NCBI GenBank assembly: GCA_902825965.1
Contig: CADEDA010000022.1
Coordinates: forward strand, 1-50,603
Source: an uncultured Gemmatimonadota bacterium
GTDB lineage: Bacteria > Gemmatimonadota > Gemmatimonadetes > Gemmatimonadales > Gemmatimonadaceae
Length of the DNA stretch: 50,603 bases
Reading direction: 5' to 3'
Shown piece after piece: positions 8,788 to 25,480 of this stretch (the first letter of the stretch is position 1; the number at the start of each line of letters is the position of its first letter). The translations under genes and the position numbers were made by a program. The notes below the pieces were generated by a model. It was given only the letters and a program-made list of their open reading frames with translations, did no database searches and was not told where the DNA came from.

Positions 8788-9888
8788 ATGCTCAGCTTAG
8801 GCATCGTCGGCCTCCCCAACGTCGGCAAGAGCTCCCTGTTCAACGCCCTCACCGCCGCCAAGGCCGAGGCCGCCAACTACCCGTTCTGCACCATCGATCC
8901 CAACGTCGGGGTGGTCACGGTGCCGGACAAGCGGCTGGATGCGCTCGCGGAGATCGTGAAGCCGGAGCGCACGGTGCCTGCGGCCGTGCAGTTCGTCGAC
9001 ATCGCCGGCCTCGTGAAGGGGGCGTCCAAGGGAGAGGGCCGCGGCAACGCCTTCCTGAGCAACATCCGCGAGACCGACGCGATCGTCCACGTCGTGCGCT
9101 GCTTCGACGACCCCGACGTGATCCACGTCGATGGTTCGGTGAACCCGGCGCGCGATCGCGAGACGATCGAGTTCGAGCTCGCCCTGGCCGACCTCGGCGT
9201 GGTGGAGAAGCGGCTCGACAAGGCCAAGCGTGCCGCCAAGACGGGCGACAAGGCGGCGGCGACCGAGGCCGCAGCCCTGGAGAAGGCGCACGCGCCGCTC
9301 AGCGAAGGGCGCGCACTCTGGCACGTGACGCTCAGCACCGAGGAGCGCACGCTGCTGCAGCCCCTGCAGCTGCTCACGCTCAAGCCCATCCTCTACGCCG
9401 CCAACGTCACGGACGCCGAGCTCACCGGCGCGGAGGGGCCGCACGTCACGGCGCTGCGCGCCGCGATCGCTGCCGACCATGAACCCGCGGAGGTCGTCAC
9501 CTTCTCGGCGAAGATCGAGTCCGAACTCGCCGAGTTGCCGGCTGAGGACCGCGCGGAGTTCCTCGCCTCGCTCGGGCTGGAGTCCGCCGGGCTCGACCGC
9601 CTCATCCGCGCGGGCTTCCACCTGCTCGGCCTGCACACCTACTTCACGGCCGGCGAGAAGGAGGTGCGCGCCTGGACGCTGCATCAGGGGGACACTGCGC
9701 CCAAGGCCGCCGGCGTCATCCACTCCGACTTCGAGCGCGGCTTCATCCGCGCCGAGACCGTGGGCTACGACGACTTCATCGCGCTGGGCGGCTGGAAGGG
9801 CGCCAAGGAGAAGGGCGCGGTCCGCGCGGAAGGCAAGGAGTACGTCGTGAAGGACGGCGACGTGCTCTTGTTCCGCTTCAACGTCTGA
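8788..9888 (+). CDS. ychF: Redox-/ribosome-associated ATPase YchF (OLA1 family)
   Basis: A 366-residue Obg-related P-loop ATPase that associates with ribosomes and the proteasome or stress pathways in characterised species. Seen: Walker [10 protein letters not shown] at residues 6-14, switch region [35 protein letters not shown] (G3 region), a helical coiled-coil insert, and a C-terminal TGS domain with [12 protein letters not shown]...[15 protein letters not shown]. Start [11 protein letters not shown] chosen because the family begins here; upstream in-frame Met codons lie within the repeat and the opposite-strand gene. No good Shine-Dalgarno precedes the ATG. The 3' end overlaps the convergent nucleotidyltransferase gene by 11 bp. 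Confidence 0.96.
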
Positions 9889-11008
9889 GCGCCGACCACA
9901 GGCGCCGGAACGGCCGCAGGACGGGATAGAGCGGGAGCAACGCGTCCGGCAGCGGCAGCGCCGTCCACTCCTGCAGCGTGGGATCGAACGTCGCACGGGC
10001 CAGCAACCGCGCGCGGTCGAGTGGCCGCTCCGTCCAGGCCAGGTCCCAGGACAGTGGCGGTCGCCACGCGGTCTCGCCGCGTACCCACAGCGCCTCCACG
10101 GTCTCCACCAGTCGCGGCAGCGTCGCGTCGCGTCCCACAGCCTCGGCCAGTTCGGCCGGCAGCGCGAGGTCGAGCGCGCGGGCCATCAACGCCGCCCCGA
10201 GCCGCAGCGCGCGGGCGCCGCCGACCGCGTGTGCACGCGCGTGCGCCGCGACGAGCGCGCGCGGCTCGCGCTGCGCCAGCGCGGCGAACACGGCAAGGTC
10301 CTCCAGTGCACTCCAGCCATGCTTGGACGCGTGCTGCGCGAGCAGTGCGAGCGTATCCGCCAGGCTGGGGACCGGCACCAGGCGTCCGCCGATCGCGACG
10401 TTGGTCGCGCGTGTGAGCACCCCGTCCACGTCGAGCCGCCCGGCATAGCGCCGCGCGCTGAACGCCCAATGCAACTCGAGCAGCGGTGGTTCGGCCTCAC
10501 CGACGAACTCCGACGCGCCGAGTCCGGCGAAGATCGCGCGCTCCTGGGCGGCAGTCATCGCGTGACGCGGCCGCCAGCCCAGCGCGAGCACCACGCGCCG
10601 CGCGGCCTCCACCTGCGACGGTGGCACCACGAGGTCGAGGTCGTGGAAGGTCCGCGCGGCCGGATCGCCCCAGGCCTGCACCGCGAGCGCCGGCCCCTTC
10701 CAGGCGAGCACCGGGATCGATGCCGCGTGCATCGCGTCGAGCAGGCGGTGCAGTGTCGCGACGGCCGCCAGACTGCGGATCGCGCGCGCGCGTGCCGGTG
10801 CGTCGGGCGGGAGGAGCGCCTGGAACAGGGGGGCGACCCGGTGCCGCTCCGCCAGGTCGAGGAACGCGGCGCGCTCCTCGGGAGCGATCGTCGCGGGGTC
10901 GAAGCCTCCGCCGGTGACGCGCGCGCGGACCGCAGCGCACAGCAGGTCGAGCGGACGCGACGCGGCCGCGCTCAGTCGTTCACCCGGTGCGACGCCACCA
11001 GAAGCCAC
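9878..11008 (-). CDS. Nucleotidyltransferase family protein of the RiPP locus
   Basis: A 376-residue protein of the NTP_transf_5 type (Uncharacterised nucleotidyltransferase, PF14907-like). Seen: VLAWKGPALAVQAWGDPAARTFHDLDLVV (residues about 98-127), whose KGP and DLD motifs are the family hallmark with two candidate metal-binding aspartates, then SLADTLALLAQHASKHGW. This family recurs in lasso-peptide clusters next to HPr-kinase-like kinases, where it is proposed to extend or nucleotidylate phosphorylated peptide. It is the last gene of the operon. The GTG start lies inside the end of precursor B (29-bp overlap in another frame). The actual reaction here is unknown. Confidence 0.85.
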   Translation of the reverse strand: MASGGVAPGERLSAAASRPLDLLCAAVRARVTGGGFDPATIAPEERAAFLDLAERHRVAPLFQALLPPDAPARARAIRSLAAVATLHRLLDAMHAASIPVLAWKGPALAVQAWGDPAARTFHDLDLVVPPSQVEAARRVVLALGWRPRHAMTAAQERAIFAGLGASEFVGEAEPPLLELHWAFSARRYAGRLDVDGVLTRATNVAIGGRLVPVPSLADTLALLAQHASKHGWSALEDLAVFAALAQREPRALVAAHARAHAVGGARALRLGAALMARALDLALPAELAEAVGRDATLPRLVETVEALWVRGETAWRPPLSWDLAWTERPLDRARLLARATFDPTLQEWTALPLPDALLPLYPVLRPFRRLWSALRR

Positions 11009-19065: not shown

Positions 19066-19425
19066 ATGGTCGCCTCCGCCTCCGACACCCTCCGCGCCGC
19101 GCGCCGCGCCGCTTCCGTCCTCGTCGACCGCAAGGCGAACGACGTGGTGCTGCTCGACCTGCGGCCGGTCACCGACATGGCGGACTATTTCATTGTCGCC
19201 AGCGGGACCTCCGACACGCATGTCCGGGCGACCGCCGGCCACGTGATCGAGGAACTGAAGCGGGACGGGTACCACGTGCAGTCCATCGAGGGGCTCGAGC
19301 AGGGCCGCTGGGTGCTGCTCGACTACGTCGACTTCGTGGTGCACGTCTTCCATCCGGCACTCCGTTCGTTCTACCAGCTCGAGCGGCTTTGGGGTGACGC
19401 CCCGGCCGTTCCCGTCTCCGCCTGA
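19066..19425 (+). CDS. rsfS: Ribosomal silencing factor RsfS
   Basis: A 119-residue RsfS/Iojap family protein that binds L14 and blocks subunit joining in starvation. Seen: NDVVLLDLRPVTDMADYFIVASGTSDTHVRATAGHVIEEL and WVLLDYVDFVVHVFHPALRSFYQLERLW, both hallmark stretches. It lies 137 bp after rplI and 12 bp before the next gene. Confidence 0.96.
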   Translation: MVASASDTLRAARRAASVLVDRKANDVVLLDLRPVTDMADYFIVASGTSDTHVRATAGHVIEELKRDGYHVQSIEGLEQGRWVLLDYVDFVVHVFHPALRSFYQLERLWGDAPAVPVSA

Positions 19426-19437
19426 GGAGCCCTCCGT

Positions 19438-22400
19438 ATGCGTCGCGTCGGCCTCGTGCTCGCCCTGCTCGCCCTCTCCGCACCGGCGGCCTCCGCCCAG
19501 GGCGGCTACTTCGGGCAGAACCACGTCCAGTTCCGGACGTTCAACTGGCAGGTGCTCAAGACCGAGCACTTCGACGTGCACTACTACCCGGAGCTCGAGC
19601 AGGCCGCCCGCTACACCGGCATGATGGCCGAGCGCAGCTACGCGCGGCTCAAGCAGGTGCTCGGCCATGAGTTCCGCGAGCGCAAGCCGATCCTCATCTA
19701 CGGCTCGCGGACGGAGTTCGCGCAGAACAACGTGACCGGCGACCTCGGCGAAGGGACGGGCGGCGTCACGGATGCGCTCCGGCAGCGCAACATGTTCTTC
19801 TTCGCCGGCGACCTCGGCGAGGCCGAGCACGTGCTCACGCACGAGATGGTGCACGTCTTCCAGTACGACATCTTCGCCCGCGGCCGCGCGGGCGCCGGCA
19901 TGCAGGCGCTGGCCGCGGTGAACCCGCCGCTCTGGTACGTCGAGGGCATGGCCGAGTACCTCTCGGTGGGGCCGAAGCACACGTACACCGACGCGGTGAT
20001 GCGCGACGCCGCGCTCAACGGCAACATCCCGTCGATCGAGCAGATGACGGACCGCCCCGACCTCTTCTTCCCGTACCGGTTCGGCGAGTCGGTGTGGGCC
20101 TACGTGGGCAAGCGCTGGGGCGACGAGGTGATCGGCGAGATCATGCAGGCCACGCCGAGCCTCGGCGTGGAGCGTGCGTTCCGCCGCTACACGGGCCTCG
20201 ACCTCGAGGACCTCAGCGACGAGTGGAAGGAGGACGTGCAGACGCGGTTCCTGCCGCAGGTCGCGGAGCTCGAGCGCCCGCGCAAGAACGCGTCGCCGAT
20301 GCTCAATCCGCGGCGCACCGGCGGCATCATCCCGCTCTATGTGGCGCCCTCGCTCTCCCCCGACGGCAAGCTCATCGCCTACATCTCGACGGGCAGCCTG
20401 CTGCGCGCCGAGGTCTTCCCCGACCTGTACCTCGCGGACGCCACCACCGGCAAGCGCCTCAAGCGCCTCACCCGCAGCACGGTCGACAGCGATTTCGAGG
20501 AGCTCCGCTTCCTGTACTCGCAGGGCAGCTTCTCGCCCGACGGACGCTACTTCGCGTTCACGGCGCAGCGCGGCGGCAAGGACGTCTTCTACATCTACGA
20601 CATCCGGCGCAAGAAGGTCGTGCGCCGCCTCGACACCAAGCTGCAGTCGATGATGGGGCCGTCGTGGTCGCCGGACGGACGCAAGATCGCGTTCAGCGGC
20701 AGTGAGGGTGGTCTCTCCGACCTGTACCTGATCGATGCCGACGGCCGCAACCTGCAGCGGCTCACCAACGACACGTACGGCGACCTGCAGCCACAGTGGT
20801 CGCCCGACGGCCGCTACATCGCCTTCGCCAGCGAGCGCGGGCCGCAGACCGACCTGAACACGCTCAAGCTCGGGCCGTGGCAGATCGCGCTCTACGACCT
20901 CGAGAAGGGCGAGACCACCGTGCTCCCGGGGCAGGACGGCAAGAACCTGAACCCCAACTGGGCGCCCGACGGACGCTCGTTGGCCTTCGTCTCGGACCGC
21001 ACGGGCATCGCGCAGATCTACCTCTACGACCTCAACGACCAGCAGCACTACCAGATCACCAAGCTCGTGGGTGGTGTGCTGTCGGTGACGGAGCACAGCC
21101 CGGTGATGACCTGGGCGCGTGAGGCGGACAAGCTGGCGTTCACCTACCTCGACAAGGGCGACTTCACCATCTGGAGCGTGGTCAACCCGCGCGGCCTCAA
21201 GAAGGACCCCTTCCGTCCGTCGCAGCCGACGCCGGTGGTCGCGACCGCGGCGGCCGCGGGCGACCTCGCGCGGGCAGCGGCGGCGGCCAACGTCGCGGCG
21301 CTCTCGCGCGCGCTGAACGACTCCATCGCCGCGGCGAAGGCCGCGGCGGAAGCCGCCCAGAACCCGCGCCGGCGCTCGGTCTACCGCGCCGAGTCGGGTC
21401 TGCGCAGCGCGGGCGTGGTCGGCGCGACGGAGCAATCGGGCATCTCGGTGGCCGCGCTGCTCGACAGCGCGACGATCGCCCTGCCCGACGCCGACACCTT
21501 CAAGCGGGAGCGCTATCGCGGCTCGCTGCGCCCCGAGTACATCGCACAGCCGCAGATCGGCTACGCGCAGGACAACTTCGGCCGCGGCGTCTACGGGGGC
21601 TCGGCCATCGTCCTCACCGACCTGCTCGGCAACAAACGGCTCACCCTCGCCGGCGGCCTGAACGGGCGCTTGGCGGAGGCACAGCTGTTCGCCGAGTACG
21701 CGAACATGTCCGGCCGGTACCAGTACCAGCTCGGCTTCCAGAACCAGCCGTTCTTCTTCCTCGCGAGTTCGTCGCAGACCGGCAGCGGCGGGCAGTTCCT
21801 GCAGACGCAGGCGATCGCACGCTACATCGTCCGCACGCCCTACGTGAGCGCGAGCTACCCGCTCAACCGCTTCGCGCGCTTCGAGTTCGGCGCGGGCTTC
21901 ACCAACATCGACCGCTCGTTGATGTACGTGAGCCAGGGCATCGACCTCAACCAGGGCTTCGCCACCGGGTTCTACCTCGACTCGACGGTGAACCTGAGCT
22001 CGCTGAACTACTTCGCACCGTCCGTCGCGTACGTGAAGGACAACGCGTTGTTCGGCGCCACCGGTGGCATCTACGGCCAGCGGTACCGCTTCTCCATCGA
22101 GCAGATCGCCGGCAACGTCTCGTGGACGACCTACGGCGTCGACTATCGCCGTTACGACGCGATCCTCTTCAACTTCCTCACGCTCGCGACGCGCGTGGCG
22201 GCGAACGTCTCGGTGGGGCCGGACGAGGAGCAGTTCCCGAAGTACATCGGGCGGCCGGACTTCGTGCGCGGCTACGACCGCGAGCTGTACGCCGGCGACT
22301 GCCAGACCTCGGCGGTGGACCCCAGCGCCTGCGGCGCGACCCAGCTGCTCGGCAGCCGCGTGGCCTACGCCAACGCCGAACTGCGCTTCCCGCTGCTGCG

Positions 22401-22677
22401 CCGCGTGGACCTCGGGGTGCTGCCGATCTCCCTGCCGCCGGTGGACGGCCTGGTCTTCTACGACTTCGGCATGGCCTGGTCGAAGGGCCAGAGCATCTCG
22501 CTCACGCGCCCGGACAACTACGACTTCGTGTCCGAGCGGTATCCGCTGCGCAGCTACGGCTTCGGCATCCGCCTCAACCTCTTCAACATCGCCCTCCTCC
22601 GCTGGGACTACTCGATCCCGCGCGACGGCAGCCTGAACCGCGGCTACTGGTTCTGGACGCTGGGGCAGTCGTTCTAG
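19438..22677 (+). CDS. Secreted MA-type metallopeptidase / TolB-like propeller / outer-membrane beta-barrel fusion
   Basis: A 1079-residue multi-domain envelope protein. A signal peptide (MRRVGLVLALLALSAPAASAQ) precedes a gluzincin-like peptidase with HEMVH at residues 135-139 and EGMAEYL near 169-175 supplying a third ligand. Residues about 300-590 hold TolB/PD40 propeller repeats (SLSPDGKLIAYIS, SWSPDGRKIAFSG, QWSPDGRYIAFAS, NWAPDGRSLAFVS). The C-terminal ~390 residues show alternating amphipathic strands and end YWFWTLGQSF, a typical outer-membrane beta-signal with terminal Phe. It is likely anchored in the outer membrane; the substrate and barrel role are unknown. Twelve bases after rsfS. 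Confidence 0.82.
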   Translation: MRRVGLVLALLALSAPAASAQGGYFGQNHVQFRTFNWQVLKTEHFDVHYYPELEQAARYTGMMAERSYARLKQVLGHEFRERKPILIYGSRTEFAQNNVTGDLGEGTGGVTDALRQRNMFFFAGDLGEAEHVLTHEMVHVFQYDIFARGRAGAGMQALAAVNPPLWYVEGMAEYLSVGPKHTYTDAVMRDAALNGNIPSIEQMTDRPDLFFPYRFGESVWAYVGKRWGDEVIGEIMQATPSLGVERAFRRYTGLDLEDLSDEWKEDVQTRFLPQVAELERPRKNASPMLNPRRTGGIIPLYVAPSLSPDGKLIAYISTGSLLRAEVFPDLYLADATTGKRLKRLTRSTVDSDFEELRFLYSQGSFSPDGRYFAFTAQRGGKDVFYIYDIRRKKVVRRLDTKLQSMMGPSWSPDGRKIAFSGSEGGLSDLYLIDADGRNLQRLTNDTYGDLQPQWSPDGRYIAFASERGPQTDLNTLKLGPWQIALYDLEKGETTVLPGQDGKNLNPNWAPDGRSLAFVSDRTGIAQIYLYDLNDQQHYQITKLVGGVLSVTEHSPVMTWAREADKLAFTYLDKGDFTIWSVVNPRGLKKDPFRPSQPTPVVATAAAAGDLARAAAAANVAALSRALNDSIAAAKAAAEAAQNPRRRSVYRAESGLRSAGVVGATEQSGISVAALLDSATIALPDADTFKRERYRGSLRPEYIAQPQIGYAQDNFGRGVYGGSAIVLTDLLGNKRLTLAGGLNGRLAEAQLFAEYANMSGRYQYQLGFQNQPFFFLASSSQTGSGGQFLQTQAIARYIVRTPYVSASYPLNRFARFEFGAGFTNIDRSLMYVSQGIDLNQGFATGFYLDSTVNLSSLNYFAPSVAYVKDNALFGATGGIYGQRYRFSIEQIAGNVSWTTYGVDYRRYDAILFNFLTLATRVAANVSVGPDEEQFPKYIGRPDFVRGYDRELYAGDCQTSAVDPSACGATQLLGSRVAYANAELRFPLLRRVDLGVLPISLPPVDGLVFYDFGMAWSKGQSISLTRPDNYDFVSERYPLRSYGFGIRLNLFNIALLRWDYSIPRDGSLNRGYWFWTLGQSF

Positions 22678-22703: not shown

Positions 22704-24206
22704 GTGCGCCTCTCCCTCGTCCTGCTGTTGGGTCTCGCCGTCGCCGCCTGCGGCGAGACCCGGCTCGTCGCCACCTCCGTTCCCTCCGGCGTCGGGCCGG
22801 ACGCGATCATCCTCCGCGTCCCGCGTGAGGGTGGCCTGGCCTACGCGTACCGCGCGGGCCGCGACTCGGTCCTCTTCGAGTCGCGCGACAAGGTGCCGGC
22901 CACCTCCGCGCTACTCGGCTTCGACGACTTCCTCGGCGTCGTGCTCGGACGCGATGCCGCCGGCCACGTCTTCAGCATCGACCTGCGCCTCGGCACGGTC
23001 GAGACCCTGGGATCGGCGGTGCTCGGCAGTGGCGCCCGGGCCGAAGGTGCGGCGGTGTTCGGGTTCGACGCCAACGGGCGCGTGCTGCGCGTCACGCCGG
23101 TGGCGACCTGGAGCTGGGAAGCCACCGGCGGCGCCGACATGCTCGTGCCCCAGCCCGACGGCGCCCTCATCACGGTGCGCAACGGCAATGACGGGGCGAC
23201 CGTGTCGCGCATCATCCCCCCCGAGACGCGACTCACCGACTCGACCACGCTCGATCGCGTGGAGCAGGTGCTGCGCACGCCCGCAGGCGACCGCACCTGG
23301 CTCGTCACGCACCAGACCATCACCGCGCTCCGCTCCCGCGACCTCACCACCGCGCTCACGGTGGACATGGGGCGTGCGGTCTCGGTGATCGAGACCACGC
23401 CGAGCGGCGACCGCCTGTTCGTCGGCACCTCCGAGGCCTCGCTGCGCGTGATCGACCGCTTCGCCGAACGTGAGACCGGGCGGATCGCGCTGCCGGGCGC
23501 ACCGATCGGGCTGCGGGTCGATCCGGACGGACGCTATCTGCTCGTGCGCACCGCCGCGAGCGACTCCATCCACGTGGTCTCGCTCGGCACCCTGCGCGTG
23601 ATCGCCGCGCTGGCGGGCGGCTGGCGCGAGGACCTCCCGCTCGTGACGCCCGACGGCCGCGTGCTGCTCGCCCGCGGGGCCGACGTGGTGCACGTCGATG
23701 CCGAGACCGGGCGCGAACGCCTGCGCTACCTGCGCGGGGCCGCCGACCTCTGGCTGCAGGCGCGGTGGAACGGGTTCCGGCCGCGCGCCGCCGGGCTCGA
23801 CAAGCCGGTGGAGTTCGAGGAATACGCTGCGGACTCGGCCGCCGCCGACAGTGCCCTCGCCGCGATGATGGCCGCCCGCTACGGCGATGCGTCGCAGCGG
23901 GTGATGCCGCCGCCGGCACCGGCCCCCGCCCCGGAGGACCGCGCCCCGACGCCCGCGCAGCCGGGCGAGCGTCCGGTCCGCGAGATCTGGACCGTCTCGT
24001 TCGCCACGCTGCTCGCCGAGGACCGCGCCAAGGAGATGGCGGAGCGGATCACGATCGACGGGCGCACGGCGCGGGTCATCGCGGGCAGCCGCGACGGGAT
24101 CGCGATCTGGCGCGTGGTGCTCGGCCCCTATGACACCCGCGACGCCGCCGAGCGCGCGGGCATGGCCTCGCGCCTGCCCTACTGGGTGTTCGAGGGCGCC
24201 CCGTGA
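22704..24206 (+). CDS. Beta-propeller lipoprotein with C-terminal SPOR domain
   Basis: A 500-residue lipoprotein: lipobox LAVAAC with Cys16 after a short signal peptide. Residues about 30-360 form a YVTN/WD-like propeller (repeated blades such as SVIETTPSGDRLFVGTSEASLRVID and GLRVDPDGRYLLVRT). After a Pro-rich linker (near 405-425), residues about 430-500 (WTVSFATLLAEDRAKEMAERI) are a SPOR-type peptidoglycan-binding domain. It is probably periplasmic and may act in cell-wall or division-site processes. GTG start; a -10-like TAGTTT at 22692 would place transcription start very near the GTG. Its stop overlaps the next GTG by 4 bp. Confidence 0.78.
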   Translation: MRLSLVLLLGLAVAACGETRLVATSVPSGVGPDAIILRVPREGGLAYAYRAGRDSVLFESRDKVPATSALLGFDDFLGVVLGRDAAGHVFSIDLRLGTVETLGSAVLGSGARAEGAAVFGFDANGRVLRVTPVATWSWEATGGADMLVPQPDGALITVRNGNDGATVSRIIPPETRLTDSTTLDRVEQVLRTPAGDRTWLVTHQTITALRSRDLTTALTVDMGRAVSVIETTPSGDRLFVGTSEASLRVIDRFAERETGRIALPGAPIGLRVDPDGRYLLVRTAASDSIHVVSLGTLRVIAALAGGWREDLPLVTPDGRVLLARGADVVHVDAETGRERLRYLRGAADLWLQARWNGFRPRAAGLDKPVEFEEYAADSAAADSALAAMMAARYGDASQRVMPPPAPAPAPEDRAPTPAQPGERPVREIWTVSFATLLAEDRAKEMAERITIDGRTARVIAGSRDGIAIWRVVLGPYDTRDAAERAGMASRLPYWVFEGAP

Positions 24207-25480
24207 CGCTGTCACCCGTGTCGCCCGAGGCCTGGGCGGCCGAGGGTGCGCGGGTCGCGGACGCGATGGAGGAGGTGGCCGCGGCGCTGGTGATCGGACG
24301 GGACGCGAGCGTGGCCGCGGACGTCGCGCTGGGGATGGCCCGCGCGCAGCGTGACGGCCGGCGCGTGGCGATCGGAGACGTCTCCGGCGGTGTGGAGACG
24401 CTGCGCGGCACACCCGGGGCTCCGGGGCTGCTGGAGAGCTTCCGCGACGGGCTCCCGATCTCGGCCATCGCCGTGCCGCACACCGACGACGCGCGGCTCT
24501 TCATCCTCCCGGCGGGTAACGGGCCCGTGGCGGAGCGCCTGCTGCTGGAAAGTGCACGCTGGGGGCGGCTCGTCGCCGGATTCCGCGAGGTGGATGCCCT
24601 GTTGCTCCTCGTTGTCCCGGCGGACGCGCCGGGGCTGGACCAGCTCATCGCGCAGGTGGACGGCGTGGTCGCCGTGGACATCCCGCCCACGGTGATGCGG
24701 AGCTGGCCGTTGCTGGCGACGGTGGACCGGCCGGAACCCGAGTTGCCGCCCCTCGCCCCCCTGCCGCCGCACCCGCGGGAGATCGCCCGTGCACGGCGCC
24801 TGCGTTGGCTGCTCCGGGAGGGCGTGGCCGCCATCCTGCTCGGGCTGGCCGGCGGCTTGGGATGGTGGTGGCAGCAGCGTCCGGCAGGCGCGTCGCCGCC
24901 CACGGCCGCGCCGCGCGACAGCACGGGCTCAGCGACAGGTGCTGCACTCGGCGCGGATACCATCACCCTCGGCGCCGTTGTCAACCCCGGCGACAGCGTG
25001 GCAGCCGCGACCTTCGCTCTGGAACTCGTAGCGGCGAACACCCTCGCGGGTGCAAATTCCCCACTCGCGATGCGCGGGGTGAACCTCCCCGCGCCGACCG
25101 TCTCCCCCGTCCAGCTAGGCGCGGACGGGCGGACATGGTACCGGGCCCTCACCGGAGCGTGGCACGACCGGGCGGAGGCCGAGGCCTTTCTCGCGTCGCT
25201 GCGCGACCGAGGACTCGTGCGACAGGATGTGGGACGGGTGCTGCGCGCGCCGTATGCGCTGCTGCTCGATGCGTCGATACCGACGGCTGCGGTGCCCGCT
25301 GCGCTCGCGCAGTGGGCGGCCCGAGGGATCAGCGCGTATGCGTTGGTGCAGGATGACGGGAACGCCCGCCTCTACGCGGGCGCCTTTGAGACCCCCGGCC
25401 AGGCGGTGCTCCTCGCGTTGTCGCTCCGCGACCTCGGTGAGGACCCCGTGGTGGCCGTTCGAACCGGGAGAACGTTCTAA
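24203..25480 (+). CDS. Pseudo-ATPase (CpsD/MinD-like) - TM - SPOR repeat protein
   Basis: A 425-residue protein. Residues 1-180 follow a BY-kinase/MinD-like order (VALGMARAQRDGRRVAIGDVSG, GLLESFRDGLPISAIA, LFILPAGNGPVAERLL, VDALLLLVVP) but lack the Walker A GKS/T: the corresponding stretch is VIGRDASVAADVA. A basic helix and a transmembrane segment lie near 190-226 (EGVAAILLGLAGGLGWWW). The C-terminal part has two SPOR-like repeats, about 318-350 and 378-425. It may be a non-catalytic cytoplasmic sensor tethered to a periplasmic peptidoglycan-binding domain; this is inference. It is coupled by overlap with the SPOR lipoprotein and followed directly by smc. Confidence 0.65.
   Translation: MTLSPVSPEAWAAEGARVADAMEEVAAALVIGRDASVAADVALGMARAQRDGRRVAIGDVSGGVETLRGTPGAPGLLESFRDGLPISAIAVPHTDDARLFILPAGNGPVAERLLLESARWGRLVAGFREVDALLLLVVPADAPGLDQLIAQVDGVVAVDIPPTVMRSWPLLATVDRPEPELPPLAPLPPHPREIARARRLRWLLREGVAAILLGLAGGLGWWWQQRPAGASPPTAAPRDSTGSATGAALGADTITLGAVVNPGDSVAAATFALELVAANTLAGANSPLAMRGVNLPAPTVSPVQLGADGRTWYRALTGAWHDRAEAEAFLASLRDRGLVRQDVGRVLRAPYALLLDASIPTAAVPAALAQWAARGISAYALVQDDGNARLYAGAFETPGQAVLLALSLRDLGEDPVVAVRTGRTF

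Follow-up and report, generated by a model that had tools for sequence, protein, structure and literature searches.

A predicted zinc metallopeptidase joined to a TolB-like propeller and an Omp85-type barrel in Gemmatimonadota

What might a protein do that carries a zinc protease, a TolB-like propeller and a membrane barrel in one chain? The question is raised by a gene in a 50,603-nucleotide stretch of DNA, hereafter the window, from an uncultured Gemmatimonadota bacterium (contig CADEDA010000022.1, assembly GCA_902825965.1). An earlier interpretation made from the letters alone, the sequence-only reading, had joined the three parts in one open reading frame at 19438-22677. These limits proved exact: the gene runs on the plus strand from an ATG to a stop codon, encodes 1079 residues within an open frame of 1083, and has a GGAG 8 bases upstream of the ATG. 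It is not a chance frame, because 295 of 298 sampled Gemmatimonadota genomes contain a match at E ≤ 1e-30. Among the matches listed, most span nearly the full length of the window protein. As argued below, the product may be a member of the Omp85 superfamily, a zinc metallopeptidase that is anchored in the outer membrane, faces the periplasm and acts in outer-membrane protein assembly and quality control, a reading to which we assign a probability of roughly one half.

An AlphaFold2 model of the whole protein, built with 28 sequences, had a mean predicted local distance difference test (pLDDT) score of 80.1 and a predicted template modelling score of 0.75. From the N-terminus, the order is signal peptide, gluzincin, propeller, low-confidence linker and barrel (Table 1); the first domain is of mixed structure and carries the HExxH helix, and the linker is largely below a pLDDT of 50. 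The signal peptide was assigned by eye to residues 1-20, which we take to follow the Sec-type pattern. Signal peptide, zinc protease, TolB-like propeller, linker and BamA-type barrel are thus almost certainly joined in a single polypeptide, as the sequence-only reading had it. In a Foldseek search with the whole model, TolB ranked 1 and BamA ranked 23 (E 3.3e-9). A single-sequence search of solved structures returned TolB and other propellers, and neither the barrel nor the protease domain. Pfam matches below the cut-off (FtsJ, THOC3, other methyltransferase or generic propeller families) were discounted as due to chance or to repeats.

The N-terminal domain has the features of a gluzincin, namely an HExxH motif and a downstream glutamate ligand in the appropriate fold, which bears out the earlier assignment of HEMVH to such a domain. 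Modelled alone (residues 24-290), it reached a pLDDT of 82.7 and superimposed on the M9 peptidase domain of Grimontia collagenase with Z 17.7 (233 aligned residues, 3.5 Å), ahead of M1 aminopeptidases (Z about 14). The top Foldseek match was collagenase T (E 6.6e-5), and a profile of the protease domains matched M9 collagenases at 4.7e-6 to 0.0058 over the segment containing HExxH and W..EG.AE. When the protease domains of 28 members were scanned against Pfam at E 0.01, Peptidase_MA_2 was found in 16, BSP in 24 and M9 in 21. The window protein thus shares with M9 bacterial collagenases the gluzincin fold and the HExxH and W..EG.AE site, but its domain stays below the Pfam M9 cut-off (PF01752; 17.1 bits versus 26) and is joined to a propeller and a barrel. 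M48 (PF01435) was not among the Pfam matches of the window protein at E ≤ 1.

The predicted zinc site comprises H135, E136, H139 and E169. Its conservation was assessed in 104 loci, which yielded 104 matched pieces with a length of 700 residues or more and, from these, 83 distinct homologues. H135, E136 and H139 occur in all 82 homologues that cover them and E169 in 83 of 83, the sole exception being a truncated copy; the sequence-only reading had named loss of the site in relatives as an outcome that would speak against it. In the set thinned to 70% identity, all four residues are present in 54 of 55 sequences, and the site is intact in 17 of 17 frames tested from Rhodothermaceae-order loci. 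Conservation falls from the zincin (0.57) through the propeller (0.52) to the barrel (0.43). From the fully conserved zinc site, the domain is very likely to be an active peptidase. Among 29 further profile-matched pieces, HExxH and W..EG were found in all 29 and a barrel-profile match in 20; the protease profile had, however, played a part in their selection, and other gluzincins may account for five of them (L147-L151). The nine without a barrel match comprise one locus truncated at a contig end and eight pieces from three Gemmatimonadota genomes (G053, G075 and G097). One more divergent branch (L124, L125, L126, L127 and L130) keeps the zinc ligands with a longer spacing between HExxH and W..EG, the first histidine and the tryptophan lying 57 residues apart versus 31 in the window protein.

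The propeller likewise agrees with the earlier description as TolB-like. It matched Pfam PD40 with E 1.4e-34, and the modelled domain superimposed on TolB with Z 27.0 (245 aligned residues, 2.3 Å). Identity as TolB itself was rejected (NCBIfam TIGR02800, 148.2 bits versus a cut-off of 343.15). The linker that follows is about 100 residues long in the window protein and ranges from 23 to 247 across 55 homologues. A Pfam scan of the 28 members at E 0.01 listed no POTRA family, and the model is of low confidence just before the barrel, where some homologues have only 23-30 residues. The propeller sits in the place of POTRA domains.

The C-terminal barrel had been proposed without being assigned to a superfamily; its identification as Omp85 is an addition of the present analysis. 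The model contains the barrel, the absence of which the sequence-only reading had said would count against it, and residues 699-1079 superimposed on Deinococcus BamA with Z 23.9 (311 aligned residues, 4.2 Å) and on mitochondrial Sam50 with Z 23.4 (310 aligned residues, 3.7 Å). A profile of 28 barrels matched Fusobacterium BamA at 7.3e-12, two more BamA proteins at 1.1e-6 and 2.5e-6, and TamA more weakly (0.018 and 0.053). Pfam Omp85 (PF01103) matched 4 of the 28 barrels, with a best E of 2.1e-15, and the BamA equivalog TIGR03303 was not listed for the window protein at E ≤ 1. According to DSSP, 19 strand segments lie from residue 689 on; they may be read as 16 strands by joining 846-860 with 862-868 and omitting the first two short ones. 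The longest inter-strand gap, of 47 residues, holds VRGY, which we take to be the loop-6 (V/I)RG(F/Y) motif of Omp85 proteins, this gap being placed as loop 6 in BamA. FYDFGMAW resembles an Omp85 strand motif. The protein ends in WFWTLGQSF, and the BamA piece encoded in the same genome ends in FRLGQIF. Judged by the model and by the profiles, the barrel is of the Omp85 (BamA/Sam50) type. It shares with BamA and Sam50 the fold, the loop-6 VRG(F/Y) and the C-terminal aromatic residue, and differs from them in having no detected POTRA domain. An Omp85-type membrane barrel is the defining feature of the Omp85/TpsB superfamily (PMC4104836).

Within its own genome, the gene is the sole full-length match. 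Of 20 further matches at E ≤ 1e-3, one (C3) aligns with the protease part and the remainder fall in the propeller range. The C3 match belongs to a distant paralogue (L074, 2483-6499) with HELAH, VRGF and FADAGAAW segments, which matched the protease profile at 3.1e-14 and the barrel profile at 1.8e-7. The minus strand of 19438-22677 contains 1080 stop-free codons in one frame; this is probably an effect of GC-rich codon usage, and we saw no sign of its being a gene.

G053, G075 and G097, the three Gemmatimonadota genomes that lack a match at 1e-30, do match the protease profile, most strongly in frames of 988-1291 residues; none of the eight pieces examined from them matched the barrel profile. 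Outside the phylum, all 40 genomes in the order of a 'Rhodothermaceae' relative (L034), the centre genome counted, match the L034 protein at 1e-60. These are 37 close matches and three more distant ones (G322, G333 and G342), which extend over protease and propeller only. Among 60 genomes from the phylum of an Elusimicrobia relative, 22 match at 1e-60, with the barrel matched at this threshold in four (G306, G376, G393 and G405). Further relatives occur in records titled Eisenbacteria, Calditrichia, KSB1, Acidobacteria and Bacteroidetes. At least one copy was found in 12 of 12 non-Gemmatimonadota genomes tested, which had been picked for having a match.

The order of genes in the window is rpsF, rpsR (recognised by eye), a DUF2232 gene, rplI, rsfS, the fusion gene, a gene for a probable propeller/SPOR lipoprotein, a second SPOR-protein gene, smc and a DAHP synthase gene. 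In 61 loci, some of them cut by contig ends and some from genomes included twice by way of two collections, rsfS lies directly upstream in 46 and the propeller/SPOR gene downstream in 45; rsfS is upstream in 10 of 30 further Gemmatimonadota loci. The order with both SPOR genes before smc is conserved in the family of the window's organism and in near relatives. In the Rhodothermaceae order, a relative of the BamB-like protein of L034 is encoded directly downstream, on the same strand, in all of the best-scoring 20 loci, one of which comes from the query's own genome; in the other 19, this neighbour is 28-46% identical. The L034 neighbour, the sole one scanned against families, matched Pfam PQQ_2 (BamB) at 1.9e-61 and TIGR03300 with 176.5 bits, under the cut-off, and the start of its gene (9445-10617) shares one base with the stop codon of the fusion gene. 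An upstream gene was recognised in 8 of the 20 loci. After the BamB-like gene, a recognisable further protein is encoded in 15 of 20 loci (L034 and L161-L180); in L034 it has 263 residues and no Pfam match at 0.01. Three Elusimicrobia copies (L035, L036 and L037) lie near ftsA or ftsZ and rpsA, the rpsA of L037 being recognised by eye. Genes for HEAT-repeat proteins come after the copies in L036 and L037, and one for a TPR protein comes before that in L036. A family scan of eight Elusimicrobia neighbour proteins (FtsA, two FtsZ, two S1, one TPR and two HEAT) indicated no mechanism. Adjacency of this kind is a hint of interaction, not proof.

Table 1. Features of the fusion gene and its neighbours (window coordinates)
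Feature	Coordinates	Strand	Basis
Whole gene: signal, gluzincin, TolB-like propeller, Omp85-type barrel	19438..22677	+	open reading frame, homologues, model
Probable Sec-type signal peptide, residues 1-20, cleavage about ASA/Q	19438..19497	+	by eye; pLDDT low there
Gluzincin (zinc metallopeptidase) domain, residues 24-285	19507..20292	+	profiles, Pfam, domain model
HExxH zinc-binding/catalytic motif HEMVH, residues 135-139	19840..19854	+	82 of 82 distinct homologues covering the motif
WYVEGMAE, residues 166-173; E169 probable third zinc ligand	19933..19956	+	aligned to M9 collagenase W..EG.AE; E169 in 83 of 83
TolB-like beta-propeller, residues 286-587	20293..21198	+	Pfam, structure comparison
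Ala-rich linker, mostly low-confidence, residues 588-688	21199..21501	+	model
Omp85-type barrel, residues 689-1079	21502..22674	+	model, structure and profile matches
VRGY, residues 943-946, in longest inter-strand gap	22264..22275	+	R944 and G945 in 82 of 82 with letters
FYDFGMAW, residues 1007-1014, Omp85-like strand motif	22456..22479	+	alignment of homologues
Last strand with C-terminal aromatic residue (YWFWTLGQSF)	22645..22674	+	sequence, model
rsfS, conserved upstream neighbour	19066..19425	+	
Next gene: probable lipoprotein (lipobox by eye), weak propeller similarity and SPOR domain; possible partner	22704..24206	+	
Second SPOR-domain protein, part of conserved order, directly before smc	24203..25480	+	

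A separate BamA gene was found in 13 of 13 genomes tested, in 12 of them above the curated cut-off. The exception is the window's own genome, in which a short run of N divides the BamA gene into two pieces (L081, G000:C14:5000-11000). As BamA is encoded separately, the fusion protein is an addition to the β-barrel assembly machinery (BAM) and not a replacement for BamA. A further locus in this genome (L080, G000:C2:86500-93000) encodes a TamA-like Omp85 protein beside a large TamB/AsmA-like protein, the latter read from its open reading frame. BAM, the translocation and assembly module and the fusion protein probably coexist. The BamB family TIGR03300 exceeded its cut-off in 0 of 61 Gemmatimonadota genomes, a count that says little given that it did so in just 1 of 14 controls; weaker matches (1e-5) were present in 50 of the 61, the window's own genome not among them.

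Both ends of a 16-strand Omp85 barrel face the periplasm when loop 6 is outside. Periplasmic POTRA domains are described for every Omp85 protein characterised so far, and the enzyme domain of PlpD was shown to stay in the same compartment (PMC11116518). On the basis of this topology and of the periplasmic enzyme domain of PlpD, the protease and propeller would lie, with good confidence, on the periplasmic side. The sequence-only reading had allowed either a periplasmic or a surface-exposed location, of which the former is now favoured; as to its 'self-anchored protease', the Omp85-type barrel supports an outer-membrane anchor, and protease activity is plausible from the sequence. It is unlikely that the barrel exports the propeller and protease to yield a surface-exposed, self-secreted enzyme, as once proposed for type Vd secretion: the position of the termini argues against it, as do linkers of only 23-30 residues in some homologues. 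The PlpD enzyme domain also stays inside (PMC11116518). Translocation of an enzyme–Omp85 fusion was nevertheless considered, by analogy with PlpD, by Heinz and Lithgow (PMC4104836), and the linker of about 100 residues here, and of up to 247 in relatives, is consistent with export. Even less probable is a variant BamA-type insertase with a structural or regulatory, non-proteolytic zincin. Catalysis is predicted from sequence, and BepA promotes assembly of LptD besides degrading it (PMC8423444), but HExxH and E169, the presumed catalytic E136 included, are kept in every covering homologue.

Whether a periplasmic peptidase of this type would take part in assembly or quality control is evenly balanced. 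Somewhat doubtful, in our judgement, is that it has no role in barrel assembly and reuses the Omp85 scaffold as a tether while trimming lipoproteins, envelope peptides or division proteins. An enzyme held in the periplasm by an Omp85 barrel has a precedent in PlpD (PMC11116518); the SPOR domain of the neighbour, the position of the three Elusimicrobia copies near cell-division genes and rpsA, and the resemblance of the gluzincin to collagenase and aminopeptidase folds and not to M48 are all consistent with such a tether. By contrast, a BamB-like gene accompanies the fusion gene in all 20 Rhodothermaceae-order loci examined, which points to barrel assembly. Several observations weigh against a role in assembly and quality control, or against the domain composition on which it rests. 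The window-family neighbour gives only weak propeller matches and is at most a candidate relative of BamB, and no BamB-like neighbour was seen in the Calditrichia, KSB1 and Elusimicrobia loci inspected. The Pfam Omp85 model has no match in the window protein itself, in which the barrel is seen by profiles and the model, and several distant paralogues (e.g. L135, L136 and L140) have no loop-6 VRG(F/Y) recognisable by pattern. Most of the Elusimicrobia-phylum matches at 1e-60 cover protease and propeller only. Finally, the genome has six M48 matches, so a separate BepA-type protease may exist.

Parts of this architecture have precedents. A 'WD40-Omp85' subfamily with a TolB-like propeller was named by Heinz and Lithgow in 2014 and compared with a BamA-BamB fusion (PMC4104836). 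The window protein shares with it a TolB-like, non-POTRA propeller before the Omp85 barrel, whereas a protease is not mentioned for the subfamily in the abstract or in sections 4, 10 and 13 of that paper and a gluzincin precedes the propeller here. Smaller Omp85 subfamilies are described there as conserved at the genus level only, in contrast to the near-universal occurrence of the window protein in the sampled phylum. With its propeller before the barrel, the window protein is likely to be a member of the WD40-Omp85 subfamily. PF00149 is a calcineurin-like metallophosphoesterase family. It is also the family on which a 'metalloprotease' subfamily of Omp85 proteins was based (PMC4104836). PlpD, a patatin-Omp85 protein of type Vd, likewise has an enzyme domain N-terminal to its Omp85 barrel, shown to be periplasmic (PMC11116518), but combines a patatin lipase with POTRA where the window protein has a zinc protease and a propeller. 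Omp85 proteins have been described as having one to seven POTRA domains (PMC13067283), a description that the window protein does not fit. BepA of E. coli, probably working on the BAM complex, either promotes LptD or degrades it (PMC8423444, PMC13067283). It too is a periplasmic zinc metallopeptidase tied to a BamA barrel, but is a separate M48 protein, whereas the window protein carries another gluzincin family fused to its own barrel. In the titles and abstract openings of the open-licence literature, the scope of our search, no protease-propeller-Omp85 fusion was found, and 'propeller', 'peptidase' and 'BamB' have 0 occurrences in a paper on the Bacteroidota BAM (PMC12611786).

If the protein does act in assembly and quality control, the following sequence of events may be envisaged. 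It would be exported by Sec and its barrel inserted by way of the C-terminal signal, so that the BamA/Sam50-type barrel of the model anchors it in the outer membrane, where client barrels may be offered a lateral seam. From the POTRA position, the TolB-like propeller may dock partners or clients, perhaps the product of the neighbouring propeller gene, and the gluzincin domain could act, like E. coli BepA on BAM, as the protease that cuts clients when they stall or misfold. This resembles the division of labour among BamA, BamB and BepA in E. coli, since a barrel, a propeller and a zinc protease are combined with, in one order, a BamB-like neighbour. A bolder reading, less likely than not, is that the protein forms a second, self-contained machine for outer-membrane assembly and surveillance alongside BAM, with an insertase-type barrel, a docking propeller, a triage protease and a dedicated BamB-type partner; on that reading, such a machine would span Gemmatimonadota, the Rhodothermaceae relatives and related phyla.

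At stake is how cells choose between folding and destruction of a stalled outer-membrane protein. For BepA, the recognition and cleavage of late-stage stalled proteins have been described as unknown (PMC13067283). A protease, a docking propeller and a BamA-type barrel in one chain would make the coupling of folding and destruction directly testable, and the finding would give the 'WD40-Omp85' class of 2014 a likely enzymatic function.

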